Part shown: positions 1,893-18,987 of the stretch, piece by piece
Layout of the letters: every line of letters begins with the position of its first letter
Numbering within the stretch: the stretch's first letter is position 1
Assembly: GCF_009647655.1 (NCBI RefSeq)
Contig: NZ_WJFD01000003.1
Span: 620,001 to 684,000 of the forward strand
Source: Chitinophaga sp. SYP-B3965
GTDB lineage: Bacteria > Bacteroidota > Bacteroidia > Chitinophagales > Chitinophagaceae
Direction of reading: 5' to 3'
DNA length: 64,000 bases
Translations under genes and position numbers: made by a program
Notes under the pieces: model-generated
What the model was told of the DNA's origin: nothing
What the model saw: only the letters and a program-made list of their open reading frames with translations
Database searches by the model: none

Positions 1893-4429
1893 TTTACTGT
1901 TATCTCATGTACGCCGGCAGACAGCATCACATTTTGGTCATATACTTTTTTCAGGTTCAGTTCCGGTAATTTGGAAGCATCCTTTATCTCTTTATTCACG
2001 GGAAAGCCATAATCTTTTACAAGGCTGTAATCCAATGTTGGAGGCCCAACGGGAGATTTAATCTGCACAGGTTCAAACGTACGGATCACTTGTTTTCCAC
2101 CTTCATAGGTTGAATGGATCACGGCTTTCACGAGGCGTTTATCTTTCCAGGTAATATCTACTTCAAAACCACCTTTTACTTTTAATCCTTTTACACTGCC
2201 CGTTGGCCATACGGAAGGTAATGCAGGTAATAAATGGATCACACCATCATGGCTCTGCACCAGCATTTCCGTAATACCGGAAGTAACACCAAAGTTGCCA
2301 TCTATCTGGAAGGGCGGATGCGCATCAAAAAGATTTGCATAAGAACCACCGCTGTTATCTGCCACACTCACAGAATCTCCTGATGCGTAAAAGAGTTGTT
2401 TATTCAACATCAGATAGGCATGGTCTCCATCTTCGAGCCTGGCCCACCAGTTGATCTTCCATGCTTTTGACCATCCTGTTCCTCCATCTCCACGTAATTC
2501 CAAGCTACGTTTAGCAGCAGCAGCCAGTTCAGGCTGACGGCGTGGTGTGATCATATTGCCAGGGAACAGACCATAGAGATGTGATAAGTGACGGTGACTA
2601 TCTTTCGCATCATCCCAATCCAGGTACCATTCCTGTAACTGACCCAAACGGCCTGCATGGAAAGGATATAAGTCTTTTAATACACCGTTTATTTTTTCTG
2701 TGAACTGTTTGTCTGTTCTTAATTCATTCGCCGCTTGTACCGTTCTGTTAAGCAGATCATAGATGATAGACATATCCATGGTAGAGGCAATGCTCACACT
2801 TCCTTTCCTGGCACCATCTATCAGGAAATTATTCTCCGGGGAGGTGGAAGGATTGGTTACCCATTGGCCCTGCGGGTTCTTCACCAGCCAGTCCAGCATA
2901 AACTCTGTAGCTCCTTTCATTAAAGGATAAGCTTTATCGCGCAGGAATTTTTCGTCTCCGGTATATGTATAATGTTCCCACAAATGCCTGCACAACCATG
3001 CACCTGCCATTGGCCAGATGGCCCAGCGTGGATCACCTTTCGGATCTTTCCAGTCGAACCCTCCGGAGGGAGAAGACAATGCCCAGATATCCACGTTGTG
3101 ATGTACCGCCCAGCCTTTCATGCCATAATTCACTGCTGCTGTTTTCGCTCCTGTTACAGAAATCTGTTTAATAAAATCGAACAGCGGCTCAGCACATTCA
3201 GAAAGGTTAGCCGTTTCTGCCGGCCAGTAATTCATTTCCGTGTTGATATTGGTGGTATAGTTAGAACCCCATGGTGGCTGCATCTTATCATTCCAGATCC
3301 CTTGCAGGTTCATAGCGGGGCCGCCTTTGCGGGAACCGGCAATCATCAGGTAACGGCCATACTGATATAACAGCGTGGTCAGTTGCGGATCCATATTACC
3401 ACCTGCTTTTGTGTATGCTTTCAGGCGTACATCTGTTGCTTTTGGTCCGGAACCGTCATCACCCAGGTCCAGTTTCACCCGGTTGAATAATTTTGTATAG
3501 TCAGCAATGTGCTGTTGTAATAAAGTGTTGTAATCTTTTGGTTTGTCCAAATATTTTAAGGCTTCTGCTGCAGGATCTTTTCCTTCACTTACCGGGTTCT
3601 TTAAAGCACCGTTGAAACTGGTACCGATGGAAACCAGCAGCACGGCTTCTGTTGCGTTCTTTACCTGTAAGCCATTTTCATCTGCTACACTGCTGCCGTT
3701 CTTCAGTTTTGCCTGTACGTGTACTTCATACTTAATACCATTCTTCGGATCATATTCAAACTTCCTCGTTTCATATGGGCGGTGTGGTACATAAGAAGGA
3801 CATTGCCCACTTAATACGATGTGGCTGCTTGTACGTTTGCTGATCTTAGTGGGCATGGGATTATCAAAGGCCACATGGAAATTCAGGGCGCCTGCCTTTG
3901 AGCTGCGCCAGCGGATCACGAGTAATTGATCCGGATAACTCACAAATGTTTCCCTTGTATATTCCACACCGTTTGAAGTATACTTTACTTTAGCAACAGC
4001 GTTGTTCAGGTTTAATTCTCTTTCATATTTTGTAGCAGTGGCTACCGGCTGATCATTCTTCAATAATAAATTCCCCAGGGTAAGATACCTGGCAGAATAA
4101 GTACCCAGCATTAAACGACTGATGGAATCCGCTTTCATGTATTCCGCATTCCACAAGGCTTGCCGAACAACGAGCAACTGTTCTTTTGCACCGGGATTGT
4201 TACCATCCTTCGGACTGCCACTCCATAAAAATGCTTCGTTCAATTGCAGTTTTTCTTCCTGTACGGTACCAAATACCATCGCGCCAATACGGCCATTCCC
4301 AATGGGCAGGGCTTCATTCCAGTTTGCGGCCGGTTGCTGATACCAAAGCCGGAGCAGGGGATCTGCTTTCTGGCCCAGTGTGAGCAATGGCGCGCTTATT
4401 AATACCAATCCGAAAACGAAACTTCTCAT
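1889..4429 (-). CDS. GH95 alpha-L-fucosidase
   Basis: This is an inverting fucosidase of the type that cleaves alpha-1,2-linked fucose or, in some plant-polysaccharide members, alpha-L-galactose. The signal peptide ends around LLTLGQ. An N-terminal beta domain starts with [19 protein letters not shown], and an (alpha/alpha)6 barrel follows. Visible GH95 landmarks are [19 protein letters not shown] with the paired Asn, PSTSPENNF with the general-acid Glu region, [13 protein letters not shown], and [12 protein letters not shown] with Asp710. The 846-residue length is normal for the family. It starts one nucleotide after the beta-helix gene stops and its own stop overlaps the GH29 start, so the three genes are surely one transcript. 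The two fucosidase families together suggest a substrate with more than one fucose linkage (inference). Confidence 0.93.
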
Positions 4430-4430
4430 A

Positions 4431-6002
4431 TTATCTTAGTTTACCCTCTCCTTTCCAAGCTGCCAGTAATTCCCAGATATTTCCGGATGCCTGTGCTTTA
4501 GTGATGGTGTTATCAACTGCTTTATCTCCCAATCTTTCTTTCAACTGTTGCAGATACAGGCTGCGGGGTGATACCGGTGTACCCCAGCTTTCCCAGTAAC
4601 CTGTAGTTCCGTCCTGTTTTTGTCCGGTGCAACCAATGGCCCAGTTCTTTGAACCCGGTGCGCTGGTTACTTTAAGATCACTTTTGTAAGAGTGATTATT
4701 CCAGAACATCACCTGTGCACCAGACCATCCATGGCCACTTCCCATAGCCCCGCGATTTTGCACCCTTATCTGACCGCCATAAATATTATCAAACAACAAA
4801 CCGGTTGCCCAACGGTGATGCGGACCAATGTCCGCATAAGTATCCGTGGCATAACAATCCAGGAATACATTCGGGCCGGGCACCACAGAACCTGTTACAA
4901 AATCATGCCGTCCGCCGCGGGAATAGCAACGGTTCAATAAATTAAATGCTGAACCGCTTTCTATTACAAAAGAATATTTCCTGCCGCCGGTGGTGATGGA
5001 TTTAGGATCCAGCATCGCACATTCCATTACCGTATTATAAACAGATTGCGATTCGATGGATACACAGGCATAACCGAAATACTTTGCTGTTACCTGTTTC
5101 ACCCAACAATTCTCTGCCCGTAACAAAGCCACTGCATCCCATCCGTGATCTTCACTGGTATCTGTTTTATAGGCAGATTCCATCCGCATGTTTTCAATAC
5201 CACAGTTGCTGATGCGGCCATTTCTCTTTGCTTTATAAATATACCCTCCGCCATGCTGCACCCGTATAGGATCAACAACAGGCTCTTTTAGGGTGAGTTG
5301 ATTGCCGGTTATTTTGACAATCGTTCTCTCAAATTCTGCTTTATATGCGTTAGGCTTCCAACCGAACTGTGCCGTATTGAGATCATCTATCCATAACTGA
5401 TTCGGCGTACGCACCAGCATAATACTATCTCCCGCTTTAAATCCTGCAGCATTTTCTACTTCCAGTACAGTTGCTCCTGTGGGCAGATATTGTGTAGTAA
5501 TGTTACTACGGTTACTTTCACTACCATGGCCTTTCCCTTCTCCTTTGATGCGGATAAAGCTATGCTGACCGGGTACGAGGTCCTTTAATATTGTACCATC
5601 TGCTCCTTGTCCTTCTCCTCTTAATACTACACCACTTTTTGAAATGGTGAGCAGTCCATTTAATTCATACGTACCTGCTTTCAGCAGGATGGCTCCACGG
5701 ATACCATTTTTATCAAGCGGGAGTTGTTCCACTGCATGAATGGCATCTTGTATATATTGATGATTATCTCCGGCCTGAGGACTTAAAGTCTTCTTTACGG
5801 ATACTTCCGGCAGCGTTATACCGCCTCCTTTGTAACCAGCATGAGAATAGTCAGGTACCTTATTAATACTGTTGCTCTCTCCTTCATTGGCGTAGGTGGC
5901 ATAGATCAGTTTACCATTGCTTCCGGTTTGCACCAGTTTGCTTTGTTGACCGTAGGCCCCGACAGCCGCGAGTGTTAATACTACAATTGCGTGGAACTTC
6001 AT
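4431..6002 (-). CDS. Secreted right-handed parallel beta-helix protein (pectate-lyase-like fold)
   Basis: A signal peptide ([19 protein letters not shown]) supports the ATG at 6002 rather than a longer reading frame. Residues ~85-150 match the N-terminal cap and first coils of pectate-lyase superfamily beta-helices ([36 protein letters not shown]). Repeated short Asn/Gly-rich coils run to about residue 480. The catalytic chemistry is not evident: proteins of this fold include lyases, glycosidases and epimerases. It is the first gene of a unit with GH95 and GH29 fucosidases and is probably the backbone-cleaving or glycan-processing member (inference). Two LacI-type palindromes lie in its upstream region (6185-6263). 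The substrate is unknown. Confidence 0.8.
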
Positions 6003-6184
6003 GTAATCTGTTGTAACGTGGTTTACCAGCTTCTGCCCTCCACAGGAAGTACGGCATCTACAAACCGTACAGCCCGTGAATTGCAGCAAAAGCATGATCT
6101 TAATAGTAATGAAAAAACGTGTCTAATCTTCATAACGCGGTGCCCTCGTGGGCATATAAAAAAAGAGTTTATTGTTCTAATCTT

Positions 6185-6198
6185 TGCAAACGTTTGCA
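6185..6198. promoter_or_regulatory. LacI-type operator palindrome (proximal)
   Basis: TGCAAACGTTTGCA is a perfect 14-nt palindrome with the central CG typical of LacI/GalR/PurR-family operators. It lies about 185 nt upstream of the beta-helix gene start. The 12-nt core recurs at 53636-53647 upstream of the GH105 gene. Confidence 0.7.
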
Positions 6199-6251
6199 TC
6201 CTTAGGGACACTTGTGCGCAATAAAGGTATTGAATCCGTTACACAAATTAT

Positions 6252-6263
6252 GCAATCGGTTGC
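6252..6263. promoter_or_regulatory. Degenerate LacI-type operator (distal)
   Basis: GCAATCGGTTGC is a near-palindrome matching the GCAAACGTTTGC core at 10 of 12 positions. It lies about 55 nt further upstream than the perfect site. A weak minus-strand -7-like element (TACCTTTA, plus-strand 6222-6229) falls between the two sites, compatible with looping repression. The rest of the 6003-6310 interval shows no gene. Confidence 0.45.
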
Positions 6264-6310
6264 ACATACTTGCACATTATTTTAACCTTTCTTGATATTG
6301 AATTAGCATT

Positions 6311-7606
6311 TCACAGCGCGGGGCTGGAAAAACCCAGGGATTTCAGGCCTTTTTTGATGTCCGGATGACTCATAAAAAGCCGCCAGAGCAGCCCTGAGCG
6401 GTAGTTTTCGATCATTACCACAATAGGGCCCTGGTCTATGGCCAGGTATTGGTAGTCATACCAGTTATGGGATTCGGAGAAAGCATCGTAGAAGCCAAAT
6501 TCCCCCCAAAGCCTTGCCCCTACTTTGTTGTAGAAGTATTTGAGGGCCTGCATGGAATAGACGGGGGTGTAAGGAAAAGAGGATAATGCGGCAGTAGGTG
6601 TTATAACACCGAGATCATTAGTGGGGGAATGTGCATTGTAGAATTCATGATTATCGCTGGCGGTTAGGCCCCAGCAATCTGCGCTGTATCCTTTATATTG
6701 TTTGGGATTATTAATACAATACTGGCGATTGATCAAAGTATGGTTGGTGTTCTGCTCCCAGTAATCTGCATACTGGTCTTTTAATCCACGCGGGTCCAAA
6801 CCCAGGAATGAATAATGCGCAAAGAAAAGCGGGCCACCGTAATCAAAACCCAGCGGTAATTTGATCCCCAGGAATTCTTTTCCGTTCTTAAAGTAATTAC
6901 TCACTGCCCAGCCCTGGTGGTAGGCTTTAGGGGACACCCGGAAATTAGGAGAGGAAGCCCCCAGCACATAAGTGATCAGGCATTCATTCCAGCCACGGAT
7001 GGTATGATTCATAGACCATCCGTTGTTGGGCGACCAATGCCAGTATAATACATCCTGCCCTCCCTGTGTGTACCAATTCCATTCTGCATCATTCCACAGC
7101 CCGGTGATCCTGTTCCGCAATTCCTGTTCTTTTGGGGTATTGCGATCAAAGTATTGCTGCACGGCTAATAAACCCTGGAACATAAATGCAGATTCCACCA
7201 GGTCTCCTCCATCATCTTTTCGGCTGAAGGGAATGGTTTTACCGGTGGCCCCATTCATCCAGTGTGGCCAGATGCCGTGGTAGTGATCTGCTTTTGACAG
7301 GAACTGTACGATCTTTAATAAACGTTCCAGCCCCTGTTCCCGTGTAACGAATTTTCGTTCTATTCCTACCAGGATAGCCATCACGCCAAAACCGGAACCA
7401 CCAATGGTAACGACTTCCGGAGTGGTAGTACGTTCAGGTGCTAAGCCAGATACGGGATGCGCAAACTTCCAGAAATAATCAAAGGTTTTCTGTTGCACGA
7501 GGGTGAGCAAAGCAGAGTCCCCCAGTTGTGGCCGGGGGATCTGTTTCTTTTGTGCGGCAACCGGTAATGCGGTGCCAATAAGCAGGCTTAATAATAAGAT
7601 GCGCAT
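6311..7606 (-). CDS. GH144-like endo-beta-1,2-glucanase (glucoamylase-like domain)
   Basis: The protein has a signal peptide (LLIGTALPVAAQ) and one domain of about 400 residues of the family once named 'putative glucoamylase', now largely GH144, whose characterised members cleave beta-1,2-glucan. Family landmarks are QQKTFDYFWKFAHP, RTTTPEVVTIGGSGFGVMAI, GIWPHWMNG, DGGDLVESAF, WHWSPNNGWSMNH and GWNECLITYVLGASSP. The ATG at 7606 is preferred over an in-frame TTG just upstream because it sits in a TGATG stop/start overlap with SusD. That makes it the last gene of the sigma/FecR/SusC/SusD operon, so it likely trims the glucan that SusCD imports. No GH3 beta-glucosidase partner lies in the window. 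The fold call is strong; the beta-1,2 specificity is inferred. Confidence 0.82.
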   Translation of the reverse strand: MRILLLSLLIGTALPVAAQKKQIPRPQLGDSALLTLVQQKTFDYFWKFAHPVSGLAPERTTTPEVVTIGGSGFGVMAILVGIERKFVTREQGLERLLKIVQFLSKADHYHGIWPHWMNGATGKTIPFSRKDDGGDLVESAFMFQGLLAVQQYFDRNTPKEQELRNRITGLWNDAEWNWYTQGGQDVLYWHWSPNNGWSMNHTIRGWNECLITYVLGASSPNFRVSPKAYHQGWAVSNYFKNGKEFLGIKLPLGFDYGGPLFFAHYSFLGLDPRGLKDQYADYWEQNTNHTLINRQYCINNPKQYKGYSADCWGLTASDNHEFYNAHSPTNDLGVITPTAALSSFPYTPVYSMQALKYFYNKVGARLWGEFGFYDAFSESHNWYDYQYLAIDQGPIVVMIENYRSGLLWRLFMSHPDIKKGLKSLGFSSPAL

Positions 7607-9099
7607 CAATAATTTGGATTTTGTTCTAAACGCCCGCCGCTTAAGAGGATCTGCTCTTGCGGGATGGGGAATAATTCATGTTTTCCGTCTACAAAGTTCT
7701 TTCCATGTGCTCTCATCACTTGTCCTGCACGTCCTTGTCTTACCAGGTCCCAGAAACGATCATGTTCCATGGCCATTTCCACTCTCCTTTCTTTCCAGAT
7801 AGCTAAGCGCATGTCTGCTTGTCCTGCTGCAGGGGCATCTGGTAATCCGGCACGTTTGCGGATGATGTTCAGTTTTGCCAGTGCTTCTCCTGCGCTACCT
7901 ATTTCATTTGCCGCTTCTGCATAGATCAGCAACACTTCTCCGTAACGCAGCACGCGGAGGTTTTTGGGCGTACGATCCGGGCTACCGCAATAAGGTTCCT
8001 GTGTACGACTGTGATAAGCTTTATAATTATACCGGTCGTTTTCCACGGAATCCCTGGAAGGTACCCTAAAGCCATCCCATAACGTTGTACCGTTCGGCTC
8101 TATGGTAATAATGGTACCTGCTTTGCGTTTGTCGTTTGGCTCGTAAGCTGCTGCCAGATCTGCGGTGGGATTATTAAATCCGAATCCGAAATCAGACCAG
8201 CCTTTCCTTGCCCGGATACCCTGGCAATTTGCATACAGCTCTATCGCAGAGTTGCAGGCAGCGCTGGTGCCCGTTTGTACCTCAAAGATGGATTCCATTG
8301 AATTAGCCCCCTTTGCACGCCAAATATCGGCATAATTGGAAAGGGTATCATATAACTTTGAATCGATCACGGCTTTGGAGAGATCAAATGCTTTCTGATA
8401 GTCCTTCTTGTAAAGATAAACTTTGGCCAGCATGCCCTGTGCCGCTCCCTTTGTGATACGGCCTACAGGGGTTGCGCCTTTCAGCGGCAAATTATCTACT
8501 GCAAACTGCAGGTCGCTGATGATAAGATCATAGATCTCTGTAGCAGTAGCACGCGTCTGGAATTCATCTGAATTGGCTTCTTCCGGTTTGGGTACACGAT
8601 CCAGTTTAGGCACACCTCCAAAAGTACGTACGAGGTTAAAGTAAAAATACCCGCGCAGGAAACGTACTTCACCGATCAACCTGTTCTTTGTAACATCATC
8701 CAGCGGACTCAATGGTAATTTATCCAATGCCTGGTTTGTTCTGGCAATGGCCTGATAATAACCCGTCCAGAAATTCTGCACGTTGCTATTAGCCGGTGTG
8801 TAGGTGAAATTATCGATCTCTAATGCAGGACCATAATCCTGTGGTGTACTGCCTTTATCTCCTTCATCACTTGCAATGCTGGTGAGCACTACCATTTGTA
8901 ATCCATGTACATCTGGTCCAAAACCTCCCAGCCACATTACATTATATACACCATTCACGAGGTCTATCGCTGCATTGGGATTGTTCCTGATCTCTTCTTC
9001 CGTTACCCTGCCCTGCGGTGGGATATCCAGAAAACCTTTTCCGCAGCTGACATACATCAGCCCGAAACTTATAAGTAATATACTGATTAGCCTTTTCAT
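7606..9099 (-). CDS. SusD/RagB-family surface glycan-binding lipoprotein
   Basis: This is the outer-membrane, surface-exposed lipoprotein that caps a SusC transporter and delivers oligosaccharides to it. The ATG at 9099 gives a lipoprotein signal ending LMYVSC with lipidation at Cys19. The body shows SusD tetratricopeptide helices (YYQAIARTNQALDKL, RFLRGYFYFNLVRTFGGVP) and the C-terminal SusD region (LRYGEVLLIYAEAANEIG, WKERRVEMAMEHDRFWDLVRQG). At 497 residues it has the expected length. It begins 10 nt after SusC stops and shares one base of its stop with the GH144-like start. The family call is secure; the ligand is inferred from the neighbour as beta-1,2-glucan. Confidence 0.95.
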   Translation of the reverse strand: MKRLISILLISFGLMYVSCGKGFLDIPPQGRVTEEEIRNNPNAAIDLVNGVYNVMWLGGFGPDVHGLQMVVLTSIASDEGDKGSTPQDYGPALEIDNFTYTPANSNVQNFWTGYYQAIARTNQALDKLPLSPLDDVTKNRLIGEVRFLRGYFYFNLVRTFGGVPKLDRVPKPEEANSDEFQTRATATEIYDLIISDLQFAVDNLPLKGATPVGRITKGAAQGMLAKVYLYKKDYQKAFDLSKAVIDSKLYDTLSNYADIWRAKGANSMESIFEVQTGTSAACNSAIELYANCQGIRARKGWSDFGFGFNNPTADLAAAYEPNDKRKAGTIITIEPNGTTLWDGFRVPSRDSVENDRYNYKAYHSRTQEPYCGSPDRTPKNLRVLRYGEVLLIYAEAANEIGSAGEALAKLNIIRKRAGLPDAPAAGQADMRLAIWKERRVEMAMEHDRFWDLVRQGRAGQVMRAHGKNFVDGKHELFPIPQEQILLSGGRLEQNPNY

Positions 9100-9109
9100 G
9101 ATAACGTTT

Positions 9110-12100
9110 TTAAAATGTAACATTCAATCCAACTGCAAACGTCCTTGTGGTAGGATACGGCATCAGTTCTATGCCGCTTTCCAGTGGACTGGCATTGTTC
9201 TGTGCTGAAATGAATCCATCCGCTTTTGGATTGGTGGAGATCATTTCAGGAGAGAAACCACTAAAGCGTTTTACCGTGAAAAGATTCTGAGAGGTGAGGT
9301 AGATCCGCAGCCTGCTCATCTTCATGCGTTCCAGTAATTGTTTAGATAAGGTATAACCCAGCGTGAGGTTATTGAGGCGGAAGAAATTACCGGACTCAAT
9401 GAAATAGGTGGAAGCCGGGATGCTGCTGTTGAGGACTCTTGGATCTGTTGCTGAAGGGCGAGTAGATGTCCAGCGTTTATCAGCGTAATCTGCTTCTATG
9501 TTATCCGTGATCTCGTAGCGGAATGCTTTTTTACCGTTGTATATCTTATTACCGGCATTGCCGTAAAAATCCACACTCAGGTCTAAACCTTTGTAATTTA
9601 CACCGGCATTGAGACCGTAATATAACTTAGGCTGATAGGAACCTGCATAGATCTTGTCATCTACTGTGATACTGCCATCATCATTTACATCCCTGTAACG
9701 CAGATCGCCTGGTTTAGCATCGGGCTGGATCTTTTGCCCGTTCTTATTCAGATAGGCATCTACTGCTGCCTGATCTACGAACACACCCTGTGCATCATAC
9801 ACATAAAAACTACCAATGGGATAACCACTGGCTGTTTTTGTTACTGGTCCCTGGCCGCCCACACCACCTTTCAACAATGGCTGGCCCTGGTTGAGACCGG
9901 TTACTTTGTTATCATTCAGGGTGAGGTTGCCCCCAAATGTATAATCGAAACCATCACTGATCTTATCTTTCCATTGCAGCGTGAATTCCCATCCTTTGTT
10001 GACGAATGAACCGGCATTGGTGATATATTCATTATCCGGATCGCCCAACAGACCAGGGATCTTTACGCCCACCAGCGCATCGATGGTTTTCTTGTTATAG
10101 TAGTTTATTTCACCGGTTAGTTTTTGTCCGAGGGAAGTAAACTCCAATCCAAAATCATACTCTTCCGTGGTTTCCCATTTGAGATTGCGGTTCTTGATAT
10201 CTGCCAGGCTGGTACCCAGTGTAGCTTTGCCATCAAAGAAATATTGCTGGCCGGTGCTGCCGGTTAGCACATACAGATTGGACTCAATATTATCATTACC
10301 AATACGCCCCCAGCTGCCGCGCAGTTTCAGGAAGTCGAAGATCTTCTGGTCCTTCAGGAAGGCTTCCTGTGAAAGCACCCAGCCCACACCTACAGCAGGA
10401 AAATAACCATTGCGGTTTTCTGAAGGGAAACGGGAAGAGGCATCGTTCCGGAAGGATACGGTAGCGAGGTATTTATCTTTATAACTATAGTTTACACGGC
10501 CAAGAATGGAGGCACGCGCATATTTATCACCATCTGCGGTAACAGTGGAGGTGTTGGGATCTCCTGCAATCAGGTACCAGAGGTCTGTACTGATAGGCAC
10601 ATTCCTTCTGCTGCCTTCAATATATTCTCCCTGGTATTTTTGTGCAGTATATCCTGCCAGCACGGTGAGATCATGATCGCCGAAACGTTGCTGAAAAGTA
10701 GCGGTATTATCCCAGAGCCATTCCTGATTCTGTTCTTTCACCATGGTCAACTGACTTTCCGGACGTTGCTGGTTACCTCCTGCTATGAGGAAAGTGGATT
10801 CGTCATTCAGGAATTGAAAGTTATACTTCTTCCTGTTAAAGTTGGATTGGTTTACACTCATGCTGGAACGCAGCTTGAGGAATTTCCAGGGAGAGTATTC
10901 CAGGTAAGTAGTTCCCTGTACACGGCCTTCCTGGAGTTTATCATTGTTCTTATCAATGGTGAGCGCAGGGTTACCTACGTTGCCGAAAGCCGCGGTATTA
11001 CCATATTTCCCGTTCTGCATAACAGGGATCAATGGAGAGGCGCGATAGGTATTGGTATAAATTCCCTGCAAATCTACATACTGCGTATTGGAACGCATGT
11101 AAGAGAACTGCGCCACGAATTTCAACTTATCGTTGATGTTGTATTCGTTGTTGGAGCGGATAGTTAACCGATCATATTTATTAGTGTTCACCACCCCTTC
11201 ATCTGTGAGATATCCTGCATTGAAATAATAGAGGAATTTCTCTGATCCGCCGGAGAGGGAAATATTATGTACCTGCTGGAATCCCTTCCGCAGAACAGCA
11301 TCATACCAATTGGTGGATACATTATAACCGGGCAGGGTAACATTAGGCGCTGCATCTTTCAGGTAATCTGTATACTGCGTACTGTTCGCCATTTTAACGA
11401 GATGGGCTACTTCTCTGAATCCAGCGTTCATGTTATAGCTTACTTCCATCTCCCCGATCTTCCCACGTTTGGTGGTAATGATCACTACGCCATTGGCAGC
11501 CCGCACACCGTAAATGGCGGCGGAGGATGCATCTTTCAGGATGTCCATGGAAACAATGTCTGCCGTGTTGATATTCCTGATATCATTGGTGAGCACACCA
11601 TCCACTACATATAAAGGTTCTGCACCAGCCAGCATACTACCAGTACCGCGCACACGTACAAGTGGTTGTGACCCTGGTGCGCCGGAACTGATGATCTGCA
11701 CACCGGCCAGTTTTCCCTGTACACCTTGTGTGGCAGCATTTACCGGTTGCTTAGTTAATTCCTCTCCCCGCACGCTACCGATAGATCCTGTGAGGTCTCT
11801 TTTGCGGCGGGTGCCATATCCTACTACCACTACCTGTTCCAACTCACTGGTAGATGCATTCATCACTACATTCAATTCTGTTCTTCCATCCAGTGCTATC
11901 TCCTGCGGATCGTATCCGATATAAGAGAACAGCAATGTTACATTGGCATCGGGCGCATTCAACGTAAAAGCGCCATCCGGTGTGGATACAGTTCCCACAC
12001 TGGTACCTTTTACCTGGATGGTTACACCGGGGATGGGCTGACCATCTTTATCCTTTATGGTTCCTTTTATGGGAACAGCGATATTTGTTTGCACAGTGAT

Positions 12101-13524: not shown

Positions 13525-14112
13525 TTATTTCCAGAGAAGCCAACCCATTGCCAGCCATAAGGGGAAATCGATCAGGCGGTGGCGGAGTTTATCAAAAGCT
13601 TTGTATACCATCTTATACACGGACTTCTGGTGAATGTTCATGATGGCAGCAATATCTTCAAAAGAAAGGTTTTCATAAAAGCGCAGGAACAGTACTTCCT
13701 TCATCCGGGGTGGCAGCGCATTGATCTCTTCCGCTACTTTACGACGGCGGGCCAGGGTACTTTCATCACTGATAAGTTGGGTTTCAGGGGAAACAGTGAT
13801 ATCAAAACCTTCTATGGGGAGTTCCTGTTGTTTCCGGTTTTCCGTGGCCATACGTAAAAGATCACGGCGGAAAGCCTTCACCAAATATGCTTTTACATTC
13901 TGTACGGCTGATAAATGACTGCGGTGTGTTAGCAGGTAGAGAAACAGCTGTTGAATACAATCCTCTATCAATGAACGATCTGCATACAACTTGCAACCAT
14001 AGTTATATAACTGTGGTGCATAACGGGCATACAGGGTTCCGCAGGAGGCCTGATTTCCGGTTATGAAAGCCTGCCATTCGGCGGCATCGTCGTGGAATGA
14101 AGTTGCATACAT
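13525..14112 (-). CDS. ECF-type RNA polymerase sigma-70 factor
   Basis: This is an extracytoplasmic-function sigma factor of the Bacteroidota FecI-like group. Region 2 lies around residues 25-95 (LYNYGCKLYADRSLIEDCIQQLF), and region 4 around 130-185 (ALPPRMKEVLFLRFYENLSFEDIAAIMN, then a recognition helix QKSVYKMVYKAFDKLR). It ends in a short hydrophobic tail (PLWLAMGWLLWK) seen in some family members. It heads the operon sigma, FecR, SusC, SusD, GH144. A TATCTTTG -7 element sits 9-16 nt upstream of the ATG. It presumably drives the downstream susCD genes when the substrate signal arrives. Confidence 0.95.
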   Translation of the reverse strand: MYATSFHDDAAEWQAFITGNQASCGTLYARYAPQLYNYGCKLYADRSLIEDCIQQLFLYLLTHRSHLSAVQNVKAYLVKAFRRDLLRMATENRKQQELPIEGFDITVSPETQLISDESTLARRRKVAEEINALPPRMKEVLFLRFYENLSFEDIAAIMNIHQKSVYKMVYKAFDKLRHRLIDFPLWLAMGWLLWK

Positions 14113-14128: not shown

Positions 14129-14220
14129 GGGGAATTATCACTTCATGGCTTAATTCATGAGGTTTCCTTATTGACTGACTGGTACAAAAATGTAATCATT
14201 GTGCTAATAGAACTAAAAGA

Positions 14221-15117
14221 CTATTGATAAAATCTATGGTTTAGTAATTCTCCATTGGGGCTAAATTCGTATTCAAAATTCCCAACAACAAAGTATCTTT
14301 CTCCCATATTTTTGCCTTTAAGCTCATTTGAGAGCCAGTATCTCCCATGATTAATTTCCAAAAATTCATCTAAGGTTATGCTCTTCCCATAATGACAGAC
14401 TAATAGCATAAAGAAATTTATGGTATTATACTCTTGTTGATGAAGATGAGTAAATTCATTTGAAAAAGAATTGGGCGTATTTGCCCAAGCATCTGCCTGA
14501 AAATTCATTTCATCCAAAATTTTTCTCGGATTATTACCCCAATGGCTTTGAGCAACTTTTAAATAGCTATTAAACAAATCAATATTTAATTCCTTCCATC
14601 GTTGAGCCCATTGATTTAAGCCATTCGAGGAACTGTAGTTGACTAATATCCCATCTAAGAAAAATAAATACAGTTCAAAGTCGCTTACGTAAATCATTCC
14701 ATCAGAAACTGGGGCAGGTATCTGCAAAACCTGAGACAAATAGTCTATATCTAAGGCCCGAGCCAAAATCCCTTCATCAAGAATAGTGCTAATATTTGAA
14801 CTGTCGTATATTTCTGATACTTGCTCTTGGCTCCAAAATGAATCAAGCATTTTAGTTGTAATGGCATTGCACCTATTTCCTGCCATTATGAATACGATTT
14901 CTTTGGTAAATATTTTGACTATTATATTTATTATCTTCCTAGATTCATAGTCTCCGAATAAGACATGCACTTGAGTACGATGGTAACCTAAGTGTTCAAT
15001 AATTCCATTAATTGATTCGTTCTCAATATCTCCTTTAAACTCCTGAAAACCACTTTCTGTTGGAACAAATATACCAGATCTCTTTTCTCCCTTTAAATAC
15101 TTAGTAAACCATTTCAT
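14221..15117 (-). CDS. Unrecognised protein encoded with the Clp_N-KAP NTPase
   Basis: I do not recognise this 298-residue protein. It has no signal peptide or transmembrane segment and looks cytoplasmic. It is rich in aromatic and acidic residues and ends with GNFEYEFSPNGELLNHRFYQ. It starts at an ATG 20 nt after the KAP NTPase gene stops, on the same strand, so the two are almost certainly co-transcribed. Like its partner it is visibly more AT-rich than the flanking CAZyme genes, which suggests joint acquisition. It could be an effector, adaptor or sensor for the NTPase (inference only). No catalytic motif stands out. Confidence 0.75.
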   Translation of the reverse strand: MKWFTKYLKGEKRSGIFVPTESGFQEFKGDIENESINGIIEHLGYHRTQVHVLFGDYESRKIINIIVKIFTKEIVFIMAGNRCNAITTKMLDSFWSQEQVSEIYDSSNISTILDEGILARALDIDYLSQVLQIPAPVSDGMIYVSDFELYLFFLDGILVNYSSSNGLNQWAQRWKELNIDLFNSYLKVAQSHWGNNPRKILDEMNFQADAWANTPNSFSNEFTHLHQQEYNTINFFMLLVCHYGKSITLDEFLEINHGRYWLSNELKGKNMGERYFVVGNFEYEFSPNGELLNHRFYQ

Positions 15118-15137
15118 ATTTATGAGTTAATTACAAT

Positions 15138-17219
15138 TCAATATGGCACAATGACCTCTATTACTTTTAGAATTTCATCTAATAAATAATTATCAACTCT
15201 ATATTTTGAACTAAACAGTTCAATTTCCGTTTCCGAATTCCCATGCAACTGAGTCCTAGATAATATTTCTATTTTTTCTGGGTTTGAAATTATACTGAAA
15301 TGCATTATGAGAAGTGGAAATATGGATTTATCATTAGCAGGTGAATTCCACAGCGAAAAAATCTTCTTATCTTTAAGAAAAGAATATGCTAAATAACGCT
15401 TACCCAAGAGGTATCTATAATAGAAAATTCTTATGTTTCTAGGGGTTGCGCGGTTGCAGACTTCGACTGTTCGAATTAATAAATCGAGCTCAAACCATTC
15501 TAGTTCATACTGATTAGTTTCTTCTTGAAGTTCAGTTGTAATAGTCTCTTGTATGTAATTGAGTAAGTCTTCATTTAGTTCATTATTTCCTTTCAAATGA
15601 TCATCTGCTAATGCGTTCTCGTTTGCCTTCTGTTCCGTCTTTTTAGCTTTATCAATTTTATCCTGTTTTTTTATTTTCCCCTTTACCATTGAAAGCAAGA
15701 GGTCCCGTCTTTCCTCTTTATTTAATATGCGTAGTTTAATCCCACCAATAAACAATTTATCCATATATTCTCTTACAATAGACTCCAGATAACTACTCTT
15801 TTCTGCTTCATCTGTAAAATTATTGCTAACCAATTCCAGGTATTTTTGGGAAATAGCGAGTTTAAGTATCCTTTCATCTATTGCTGCTATCACAACTGTC
15901 CTTTTTGCTATTTCTAAATCATCTAACATTATTCTTAGTGAATCAATAATCTGAAGAATCTTTGATTCATTACATCTATCTATATCATCAATAAATAATA
16001 AGAGTCGTTTTTTACCAATTCTTTTCTCTGGTATCCATGCTTTTAATAATGTTTGAATTTCGCTTTGTATTTCAGCTTGCAAGCCTAGATGTTGAGACAA
16101 GTTATGTCTTTCTCCATATTTTAAAAACAAATCTTTTGCATGCGTACTGAATGTCTTTTTAAATATTTGAATCAAACTAAATGTTGTGATTAATATTGTA
16201 GAAGGCACTCCTAGCCATAGTAATGCTTCTTTTAGATCGGTAGTAGATACTTTGATGAAAGAGTAATTAACGTAAAGAACAAAGATCCCTATCAATAGAA
16301 TCATCAAAAATTTCAAAAACGGAACAATCCCTTTTCTTTTAAAATTTAAATATATCAATTTATAAAAAAATGAAAACCAACTAAATGTGATAGTTTTTTG
16401 AGGCTTTTTGTAATATGCAGAAGTTAAACATTCGTAAAGGTATGCCCATGTCGCCGGCGTATCCTGGTATTTCCAAGCATGAAATTCCACTTTATAAAAT
16501 GGTTTACTCTTATACTTTGACACATTGTTCCATATATTTTGCCAAAAAAAAGTCTTTCCCCTACCCCATTGACCGAAAAGACCAAACATCATTCCTTTTT
16601 CATAATGTAAATTGATTAATAGTTTGGCGATTTCAGCAGATTCTTCAGATACTCCTAAAACACCTTCTGTATTTTCTCGCATGCTCACCTGAATGAGCTT
16701 TTCAATATCAAATGAATAGATAGGTCCATCCTGATTCTTATCTACATTTTCAATATCATTCTCATCACTAAATTCAAACAAATTCTCTGAATAATCTTCT
16801 AAAACAATAGCATAACTTAATTGATAATCGAATAATATTTTCAACAATTTCTCATCAGCATTCTTAAGTATTGAAAGAAGCATGTGGATACTAGATATTC
16901 TTTTTACTTTAAGTTGCCTTGCTTCTAAAGCAGCTCCTCTAACAGCTTGCTCAGCTTTTATTGTAAGTGGTAATGATTGTAGCTCCAGTTGTTGGTTTTC
17001 CTGTCTATGTATTTTTGATATTTCCTCAACTAGAGATTGAATTTCGATGTTTTTTCTTTCAAGGATTTTTCTTGCTTGAGACGTTGTCTCACACATTCCA
17101 ATTAAAAAGTGCGTGTTATCAATAAATGAATTCCCAAGACGAATTGAACTACTTCGTGCTTGAGTTATAACTTCCTTAAAATCATCAGTAAATTGACTCG
17201 GTTGTATTTTTTCTTCCAT
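15138..17219 (-). CDS. Clp_N domain fused to a membrane-anchored KAP P-loop NTPase
   Basis: Residues ~8-143 resemble a ClpA/ClpB N-terminal repeat domain (FKEVITQARSSSIRLGNSFI, THFLIGM, then the second half with AEQAVRGAALEARQLK and ISSIHMLLSILK). Residues ~190-650 are a KAP-type STAND NTPase. Walker A is GQWGRGKT (216-223), followed by VEFHAWKYQDTPATWAYL typical of KAP proteins. Two transmembrane helices (~300-320 and ~333-353) are inserted between Walker A and Walker B, as usual for KAP NTPases. Walker B is LLLFIDDIDRC (~407-416). The start is the ATG at 17219; a TTG two codons earlier is less likely. KAP NTPases include PifA, linked to phage exclusion, and eukaryotic Kidins220. The Clp_N fusion and the AT-rich two-gene context are unusual and suggest a conflict or defence role (inference). 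Confidence 0.88.
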   Translation of the reverse strand: MEEKIQPSQFTDDFKEVITQARSSSIRLGNSFIDNTHFLIGMCETTSQARKILERKNIEIQSLVEEISKIHRQENQQLELQSLPLTIKAEQAVRGAALEARQLKVKRISSIHMLLSILKNADEKLLKILFDYQLSYAIVLEDYSENLFEFSDENDIENVDKNQDGPIYSFDIEKLIQVSMRENTEGVLGVSEESAEIAKLLINLHYEKGMMFGLFGQWGRGKTFFWQNIWNNVSKYKSKPFYKVEFHAWKYQDTPATWAYLYECLTSAYYKKPQKTITFSWFSFFYKLIYLNFKRKGIVPFLKFLMILLIGIFVLYVNYSFIKVSTTDLKEALLWLGVPSTILITTFSLIQIFKKTFSTHAKDLFLKYGERHNLSQHLGLQAEIQSEIQTLLKAWIPEKRIGKKRLLLFIDDIDRCNESKILQIIDSLRIMLDDLEIAKRTVVIAAIDERILKLAISQKYLELVSNNFTDEAEKSSYLESIVREYMDKLFIGGIKLRILNKEERRDLLLSMVKGKIKKQDKIDKAKKTEQKANENALADDHLKGNNELNEDLLNYIQETITTELQEETNQYELEWFELDLLIRTVEVCNRATPRNIRIFYYRYLLGKRYLAYSFLKDKKIFSLWNSPANDKSIFPLLIMHFSIISNPEKIEILSRTQLHGNSETEIELFSSKYRVDNYLLDEILKVIEVIVPY

Positions 17220-17457
17220 AAACAAACTTCTTTGTTAATATGACAGTAAATAGATTTAGACAGGGCAAACTATACTCACTAGGTTCATTAGGAAACTTAT
17301 AAAGTAAAATAACTTATTATGTTTTAAAGGAATCATTGGGGTGAAGAATCTTTTCCAAGCCAAAATAACAACTATTAGAATTCAATTTAAGCTTCTGCAA
17401 CAAATTGACTGAAAGAATAAATATCCTTATAGTCAACAACGGAGTAAATGAGAGGAT

Positions 17458-18933
17458 TTAGAATTTCCCTTCAGATCGGATAACTACCTTTCCGGGCTCT
17501 CTTCTCTCAGCGCCGGGCATTTTCCGCAGCTCATCTCCCAAAGCATTACGATACATATCTGCCAATGCTTCCAGCTCTTTTACCACTTCCGGAAAATGTT
17601 CTTTTACATCGAGTGTTTCACCGGGATCTATGCTGAGATCATATAACGCCAATGGAACATCTACGTTGGGTTGCGCACCGGGAAAACCGTCATATCCGGG
17701 CAGGTTATTTTTATAAGTACGACCCTTATGCGGGAACACCAGTTTGTATTTTCCTTTACGGATACCTTCCAGGCTATTCACGCCATAATAGTAAACAAAA
17801 TGATCTCTTGGATGTGCGCCTTTTTCATTGCGTAACAATGAGAGGATATTCACACCGTCTATTTTTTTAGCCGGTAATTTTGCGCCGCAGATAGTAGCTA
17901 CTGTGGGCAGCAGGTCTATGGTCGAAGCCACTTCGCCGCTTACTACGCCAGCGGGGATCTCTCCGGGCCAGCGCATAATGCAGGGCACTCTCTGGCCACC
18001 TTCCCAGCTGGATCCTTTTCCTTCTCTTAATCCTCCTGTGTTACCGGCATGATTGCCATAATTGAGCCAGGGGCCGTTATCACTGGTGAATACAACCAGC
18101 GTATTTTTTGTAAGACCTTGTTCTTCCAGTGTGCGCATCACTTCTCCAATAGAAGCATCCAGTTCTTCCATCAGGTCTCCAAAGAGGCCTGCGCCGCTTT
18201 TATTGCGAAATGGTTTAGATACAGCAATTGGTACATGTGGCATGCTGTGTGCGAAGTAAAGGAAGAAAGGACCTTTCTTATTTTCGCGGATGAACTTGCA
18301 GGCACGTTGTGTATAGAGGGAAGTTAATTCAGATTGATCTTCCAGTGTTTTGATGATGCGGATCGTGTTGTTTCCTTCTATTAAAGGTAAGGGAGGATAT
18401 TTACTACGGCTGTTAGTTGTATCTGTATATGGTTTCCCATCATAATGTACCGGCCACATATCATTAGAATAGGGCAAGCCCAGGTATTCATCAAAACCAT
18501 TTTGCAAAGGCAGGAAAGGCTGCTTGCTGCCCAGGTGCCATTTACCGACCATGCCTGTTTTATATCCCCTGCCCTTCAATAATTCAGCTATGGTTTCTTC
18601 CTCACTGTTTAACGCTATGGGCGAAGTGGGTGATAAAGCTCCGTGAATGCCAATGCGATTAGGATAACATCCTGTCAGTAATCCTGCGCGGGATGCAGAA
18701 CATACAGCCTGCGCTGCATAGAAATGTGTAAAGCGCATTCCCTGCGCCGCCATCCTGTCCAGGTTAGGTGTTTTATAAGGCCCGCCGCCATAACTGGCAG
18801 GATCGCCATATCCCATGTCATCCATAAAAATGATGATCACATTGGGTTTATTCTCTTTTTGCTCCGGCTTCGGCGGAATAAAACTGGATGTGGTAGCTAA
18901 GCAGAGTACGGCGGTGAGGATCTTATTTATCAT
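17458..18933 (-). CDS. Formylglycine-dependent sulfatase
   Basis: This is a secreted type I sulfatase that hydrolyses sulfate esters, probably on carbohydrate. A signal peptide (MINKILTAVLCLATTSSF) supports the ATG at 18933. Metal ligands appear in FMDDMGYGD (37-43). The maturation motif is CSASRAGLLTG with Cys78, where Ala replaces the usual Pro of CxPSR, still within the C-x-(P/A)-x-R rule, so an anaerobic or FGE-type maturase must exist elsewhere. Later landmarks are GKWHLG and FTSDNGPW. It lies downstream of a GH29 fucosidase on the same strand, which fits removal of sulfate from fucosylated glycans. A 15-bp perfect hairpin ends only 3 nt before the start codon, where a ribosome site would normally be. 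Confidence 0.93.
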   Translation of the reverse strand: MINKILTAVLCLATTSSFIPPKPEQKENKPNVIIIFMDDMGYGDPASYGGGPYKTPNLDRMAAQGMRFTHFYAAQAVCSASRAGLLTGCYPNRIGIHGALSPTSPIALNSEEETIAELLKGRGYKTGMVGKWHLGSKQPFLPLQNGFDEYLGLPYSNDMWPVHYDGKPYTDTTNSRSKYPPLPLIEGNNTIRIIKTLEDQSELTSLYTQRACKFIRENKKGPFFLYFAHSMPHVPIAVSKPFRNKSGAGLFGDLMEELDASIGEVMRTLEEQGLTKNTLVVFTSDNGPWLNYGNHAGNTGGLREGKGSSWEGGQRVPCIMRWPGEIPAGVVSGEVASTIDLLPTVATICGAKLPAKKIDGVNILSLLRNEKGAHPRDHFVYYYGVNSLEGIRKGKYKLVFPHKGRTYKNNLPGYDGFPGAQPNVDVPLALYDLSIDPGETLDVKEHFPEVVKELEALADMYRNALGDELRKMPGAERREPGKVVIRSEGKF

Positions 18934-18936
18934 ACA

Positions 18937-18972
18937 AAAGGGCTGCGGTATGTTATGATACCGCAGCCCTTT
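18937..18972 (-). terminator. Strong hairpin between GH29 and the sulfatase start
   Basis: AAAGGGCTGCGGTAT pairs perfectly with ATACCGCAGCCCTTT around a 6-nt loop. On the minus strand it follows the GH29 stop and ends 3 nt before the sulfatase ATG. There is only a short T-run after it, so it may attenuate transcription or block translation initiation rather than terminate fully. Confidence 0.6.
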
Positions 18973-18987
18973 CAAGATACAAAAATA

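Follow-up and report, generated by a model that had tools for sequence, protein, structure and literature searches.

A Clp_N-KAP NTPase fusion beside a partner of TIR genes: a tentative two-gene defence module on a probable island in Chitinophaga

KAP NTPases, ClpC N-domains and TIR systems are already known as classes of part, and each of the closest described systems shares something with the locus reported here. Tmn is an anti-phage KAP protein with two transmembrane domains and, in the passages on it in PubMed Central (PMC) article PMC11846954, an unexplored mechanism; purified QatA, also a KAP protein, is an apparent heptamer or octamer that binds DNA, according to the QatA passages of PMC13279940. 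In conflict systems built on effector-associated domains (EADs), KAP can displace STAND NTPases (excerpts of Kaur et al. 2021, PMC8195603), and rare vWA proteins of ternary conflict systems are fused to ClpN repeats (excerpts of Kaur et al. 2020, PMC7159879). Our locus consists of two genes of Chitinophaga sp. SYP-B3965 that lie in the window, that is, the whole stretch of 64,000 nucleotides that was analysed (G000:C9:620001-684000, part of a genome of 7.14 Mb): gene A encodes a Clp_N double repeat fused to a KAP P-loop NTPase, and gene B encodes a protein of an unnamed family. A conserved Clp_N-KAP plus B module, as an earlier note made from the DNA letters had envisaged, fails so far; the alternative that two modular parts of defence type were newly combined here fits better. 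The two genes and the parts of A are the following.

14221..15117, minus strand: gene B, 298 residues, unnamed family with homologues beside TIR genes (open reading frame, homologue searches, alignment A2)
15138..17219, minus strand: gene A, 693 residues, Clp_N plus KAP P-loop NTPase with two inserted hydrophobic segments (open reading frame, Pfam, hydropathy, ClpC alignments)
15141..16667, minus strand: KAP core of A, the constant region common to eight relatives (alignment A4)
16788..17219, minus strand: Clp_N double repeat of A, a query stretch of 144 residues (alignments)

Gene A starts with an ATG at 17219 in an open reading frame that itself opens upstream at a TTG (17225), and gene B lies downstream on the same strand after a gap of 20 nucleotides, an operon-like layout. 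The earlier note had read gene A as a fusion of a Clp_N double repeat with a KAP NTPase, and this reading is confirmed: A matches PF07693 (KAP_NTPase) in Pfam with an E-value of 9.9e-24 and 84.5 bits (curated cut-off 20) and PF02861 (Clp_N) with 4.7e-6 and 27.1 bits (cut-off 20.7) over a single stretch covering one repeat, and both repeats (residues 9-129) align to ClpC N-domains, the best chain in the PDB being 5gui (1.7e-8, 38.2 bits). The Walker A motif GQWGRGKT at residue 216, the acidic Walker B motif FIDDID and two membrane segments between them had also been read correctly; the segments are the hydropathy peaks at residues 297-315 and 332-350, a placement by hydropathy only. Beyond the N-domain only KAP exceeds its Pfam cut-off, and the AAA+ D1/D2 modules of Clp/HSP100 unfoldases are absent from A in Pfam. 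The STAND-type label that the note had invoked has to be dropped, as gene A has no STAND-NTPase match in Pfam; of the suggested link to PifA there remains a partial match (30.3 bits, residues 184-261), a full-length match being absent. The partner gene had been said to belong to no known family, and B indeed has no match in Pfam, PADLOC or NCBIfam (E ≤ 1) or in PHROGs (E ≤ 0.1). Among solved structures we found no relative of B (the sole match, E 0.79, is taken as chance), the B profile shows no relation to the KAP profile, and the EAD models of Pfam match neither A nor B at E ≤ 1.

Compared with the described systems, gene A resembles Tmn in being a KAP family NTPase with two transmembrane segments and differs from it in adding a ClpC-type N-domain and a second gene; PADLOC gave no Tmn match for gene A (whether PADLOC contains a Tmn model was not checked). 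QatA shares the KAP core and is the best NCBIfam match of A, but A reaches 35.6 bits against an equivalog cut-off of 600, instead of QatB, QatC and QatD the genes around it are B and those for a sulfatase and a sigma factor, and the QatA passages of PMC13279940 describe no Clp_N, whereas A has one. The EAD-centred and KAP/STAND systems of Kaur et al. have, like A, an NTPase core with interchangeable N-terminal domains, and relatives of B adjoin TIR-EAD11 genes; their ClpN repeats, however, ride on a vWA core, and the excerpts of PMC8195603 and PMC7159879 make no mention of Clp_N on KAP.

The Clp_N part of A shares the double repeat of the ClpC N-domain and is 31% identical to the N-domain of the genome's own Clp_N-bearing protein (an 851-residue frame, presumed ClpC), from which it differs in lacking the unfoldase modules and in its TEH motifs. 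Against presumed ClpC proteins from this genome and related ones (n = 25 loci) it scores 67-75 bits; since these scores exceed those with the PDB chains, Clp_N was probably captured from such a ClpC-type protein. In both repeats of A the glutamate of the TEH motif is replaced (NTH and SIH), whereas the genome's own presumed ClpC has TEH twice. These glutamates (E32 and E106 in Bacillus subtilis ClpC) bind phosphoarginine, and the loss of both argues for a changed ligand; the Clp_N of A is probably a protein-docking adaptor and not a phosphoarginine reader.

Relatives of gene B were collected in overlapping draws of genomes: a search with B itself found it in three of 294 family genomes, the own genome included (the others being G241 and G084), and further searches found it in two of 395 (adding G444), five of 396 (adding G889 and G936) and five of 298 (adding a fragment in G1134 and a doubtful match in G820). 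The G1134 fragment (86 residues) and the G820 match (E 1.4e-4, an 874-residue frame running off its contig) were not used as B loci. The remaining relatives are 24-44% identical to B (alignment A2); homology of B to neighbours of TIR genes has single-sequence E-values of 3.8e-71 and 1.6e-25 for two relatives, and profile A1 gives 1.6e-75, 2.0e-61 and 3.7e-33 for three B relatives that lie outside A1.

Four of the five usable relatives adjoin TIR-type genes, two of these being TIR-EAD11 genes, one PDC-S66/ThsB-like and one of CAP12 type below its cut-off. In G889 (locus L052) and G936 (L053), a TIR-EAD11 gene precedes B with a gap of 3 and 9 nucleotides, respectively, and the B of G936 is shortened to 181 residues; EAD11 was found only in these two TIR genes beside B. 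In G241 (L039), B lies 26 nucleotides before a TIR gene whose match to PDC-S66 is full-length (E 1.4e-106) and whose match to ThsB is confined to the TIR part (5.1e-45), both being Thoeris-like TIR proteins; in the window the Clp_N-KAP protein stands in the TIR protein's place. In G084 (L040), B lies 300 nucleotides after a gene that matches CAP12-PCTIR_TIR with 24.2 bits (cut-off 24.7), and Druantia DruE (E 0) is encoded ~1.5 kb away. The fifth relative, that of G444, forms the C-terminal half of a 564-residue protein whose N-terminal part has six hydrophobic segments. G241 has a single TIR_2 match, the gene beside B, whereas G889 has 16 and G936 has 15; by a rough estimate from gene numbers, it is very unlikely that chance alone would place B beside TIR in three genomes. 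Where B is a separate gene, the window included, it adjoins an NTPase or TIR-type gene in all five loci (in G084 with the 300-nucleotide gap and a sub-threshold TIR). In its neighbourhoods, B is mostly a partner of TIR genes.

Three of these neighbourhoods contain further genes. At L040:8127-11840 (G084), B is flanked by two genes without good family matches (295 and 165 residues) and by the CAP12-type TIR-like gene, and this group near DruE may be an undescribed four-gene system. At L039:6206-11692 (G241), an AT-rich run comprises a GmrSD/NsnA-like gene, an SPFH/Band_7 gene, B and the only TIR_2 gene of the genome. In G889 (L052:10992-12088), the TIR-EAD11/B pair has just upstream of it another short TIR gene (146 residues) and a gene for a 206-residue protein, hydrophobic by eye.

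Gene A was matched in 280 of the 294 family genomes, and among the matches listed only six (the own genome and five others) extend past Clp_N; the search scored at most three candidates per genome, so KAP relatives may hide behind Clp_N matches. The other listed matches stop by about query residue 193, that is, they cover the Clp_N part of presumed ClpC proteins, and we did not count them as evidence for gene A. With a profile of the KAP core (E ≤ 1e-30), the own genome was the only one of 238 to give a match. Our eight KAP-core relatives comprise the five from the 293 other family genomes and three from genome contigs; L038, a partial relative at a contig end in which there is no B open reading frame, is excluded from all KAP counts. 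In the nine aligned cores WGRGK and DxDRC are invariant, GxWGRGK[ST] is kept in all eight relatives, and the insert has two hydrophobic segments above threshold in six of them and one in L003 and L007. By contrast with the constant core, the N-terminal regions of the relatives (169-551 residues) resemble neither one another nor Clp_N in blastp (E ≤ 0.01), with the exceptions of L004 and L005 (29% over 227 residues) and of L035 and L036 (a 29-residue stretch at the core edge). The N-terminal domains over cut-off are an LRR in L006 and DUF5648 in L035 (Pfam/PADLOC); the N-terminus of L007 is weakly macro-like (DarG 3.1e-5, ThsA macro 6.8e-4, Pfam below cut-off), and that of L037 has a weak DEAD/ResIII match below cut-off. 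Such a pattern is that of a constant NTPase on which N-terminal receptors or adaptors are exchanged.

Of the five KAP relatives for which ~20 kb of context is available, two are surrounded by defence genes. In L043 the relative adjoins an Avs2 homologue (1623 residues, E 3.9e-59); a HEPN gene, a gene resembling PD-Lambda-2_B (5e-17) and one for a large serine recombinase belong to the same island, at 3880-11514 (G288). In L041 the relative is near AbiV-HEPN (2.4e-19), an LmuA-like gene (2.6e-9, partial) and an HNH-like gene (just under the Pfam cut-off). Searches of viral contigs, phages and plasmids gave no relative of the KAP part of A or of B; the one plasmid match concerns a Clp protease subunit, in its Clp_N part.

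Two relatives deserve mention for their N-termini. L045:9402-11999 (G262) encodes a KAP-clade protein with a weakly macro-like N-terminus (DarG and ThsA-macro matches), possibly a reader of an NAD metabolite or ADP-ribose on a membrane NTPase, and L037:640-3405 (Pedobacter sp. Leaf216) encodes one whose N-terminal region is weakly SF2-helicase-like.

The island character of the two genes, proposed earlier from their AT-richness, is supported by composition and by empty sites. The GC contents of A and B are 0.31 and 0.33, and those of the two genes on either side 0.45-0.47. In the two closest congeners found (G987/L071 and G937/L072, DNA identity 86 and 85%), blastn joins window position 14145 to 17484 with 3 bases between (L071) and 14150 to 17483 with 1 base between (L072); the more distant congeners L073 and L074 also lack the island, L074 lacking the sulfatase as well. 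The segment and its flanks are the following.

14146..17483, no strand: inserted segment of ~3.34 kb, missing from two congeners at the same site (blastn to L071 and L072; boundary sequence)
17458..18975, minus strand: sulfatase gene, whose final 26 bases (17458-17483) fall within the insert's side of the junction
13525..14112, minus strand: sigma factor gene; next come a FecR-type anti-sigma gene and genes resembling SusC/D (by eye)

The inserted ~3.34 kb contains A and B and no other gene, and it sits within a polysaccharide-utilisation-type locus. Because its site is empty in two congeners, the segment was most likely gained between the sigma factor gene and the sulfatase; comparison of the genomes thus makes A and B most likely an acquired island.

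The best explanation that we can offer, tentatively and with somewhat more doubt than confidence, is a horizontally acquired, minimal two-gene anti-phage module of the abortive-infection type in which B is the sensor or adaptor and A takes the place of the TIR effector. Gene A would be a membrane-anchored KAP NTPase whose constant core serves as effector or switch and whose interchangeable N-terminal slot would hold the captured ClpC-type N-domain for protein docking. Gene B would be a sensor or licensing subunit that is paired elsewhere with TIR effectors and docks here on Clp_N; upon infection, B would trigger an NTP-driven assembly of A in the membrane, leading to cell arrest or death. The defence link that the earlier note had suggested holds for relatives of both halves, which occur in defence contexts; for A and B themselves we infer the defence role from context. 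We likewise infer the docking of B on Clp_N, the assignment of B as sensor and A as effector and the membrane mode of action, and how the labour is divided between A and B is a guess. A broader proposal, that B is a universal plug of immunity, that is, one sensor/adaptor family swapped among unrelated effectors with the ClpC N-domain as a docking site, we regard as rather doubtful; the effectors counted for it are TIR-EAD11, PDC-S66-type TIR, CAP12-type TIR, a fused membrane domain and the KAP membrane NTPase.

Several observations weigh against the two-gene module. None of the eight KAP-clade loci has a B open reading frame (the L036 contig ends 190 nucleotides past KAP, making it uninformative downstream, and L037 has no sequence beyond 640 nucleotides upstream), and among the 294 family genomes the KAP core occurs in at least six, B in three and both together in the own genome only, so the conserved pair that had been anticipated is not found. 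There is also no second Clp_N-KAP fusion in the 294 family genomes among the matches listed, in the genome contigs or with the KAP-core profile in 238 genomes. The KAP genes of three of the five loci with context (L042, L044 and L045) are solitary among genes that look by eye like housekeeping genes (their GC contents of 0.33, 0.42 and 0.36 are below those of recognisable neighbours), and in G084 the sole TIR_2 match is on another contig, the gene beside B being under the CAP12 cut-off. No known defence genes were recognised by eye in the other open reading frames of the window (PADLOC covered A and B, Pfam three flanking genes). The AlphaFold models were judged unusable (mean confidence score, pLDDT, 38.9 for B alone and 46.1 for A with three relatives). 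Finally, KAP need not be the effector, because QatA is dispensable for part of the qatABCD defence (QatA passages of PMC13279940).

Four other explanations can be set against it. The roles could be reversed, with A a sensor or signalling NTPase whose variable N-terminus is the receptor, and with B either a toxic effector or the enzyme producing the trigger; N-termini that vary while the NTPase stays constant are typical of receptors (the LRR and the weak macro-like region being examples here), and the fusion of B to a multi-transmembrane region in G444 is what an effector might show. However, the proteins beside B relatives already have recognisable effector domains (TIR), so there is less need for B as an effector, and no family or solved relative was found for B; we consider reversed roles unlikely. 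The two genes could also be chance neighbours, a single-gene, Tmn-like KAP defence protein and a gene B unrelated to it that came along as cargo in one AT-rich segment. The absence of B from the KAP-clade loci and of any KAP-B pair elsewhere would fit this, as would the other partners of B, but the 20-nucleotide gap, the shared strand, an insert of just these two genes and the constant adjacency of separate B genes to NTPase or TIR-type genes speak against it and make it quite unlikely.

The tight spacing, the joint acquisition and the TIR partners elsewhere are what one would expect if B were an antitoxin, that is, a restraining or immunity subunit of toxic KAP or TIR effectors in a toxin-antitoxin-like pair; yet one antitoxin family guarding unrelated effectors would be unusual, the relatives of B are just 24-44% identical to it and KAP-clade loci occur without B, so that this explanation is improbable. 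A housekeeping function, or one in regulation of the polysaccharide locus, is suggested by the position inside such a locus; with the island missing from all four congeners inspected, a differing composition and rarity in relatives, it is highly improbable, and the empty sites by themselves already largely refute it.

Relative to Pfam, PADLOC, NCBIfam, PHROGs and the open-licence literature, the Clp_N-KAP architecture and the occurrence of B in both TIR and KAP loci are new, and the B family probably is too; searches of the open-licence PMC literature point to no Clp_N-KAP protein. If the two-gene module is real, it would be one more small acquired defence module, it would link TIR systems and membrane KAP NTPases via one uncharacterised partner family, and it would show that a chaperone adaptor domain, the ClpC N-domain, was recruited for docking in immunity. 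With its several N-terminal modules attached to a common core, the KAP clade would offer a ready set for domain swaps on KAP NTPase function.

Among minor features of the site, neither an integrase (by eye) nor a tRNA (by ARAGORN) marks the insertion, and no convincing target-site duplication or direct repeat is present at the edges of the insert. A promoter scan gave 16 sites against a mean of 16.1 in shuffles, that is, no excess, and the Bacteroidetes -7 type motif is not enriched in the window (45 versus 54.9); terminator-like sites number 3 versus 1.3 in shuffles. A second KAP_NTPase match in the same genome, at G000:C8:632890-633012 (21 bits, in a 341-residue frame, profile positions 18-58), is probably merely a P-loop.

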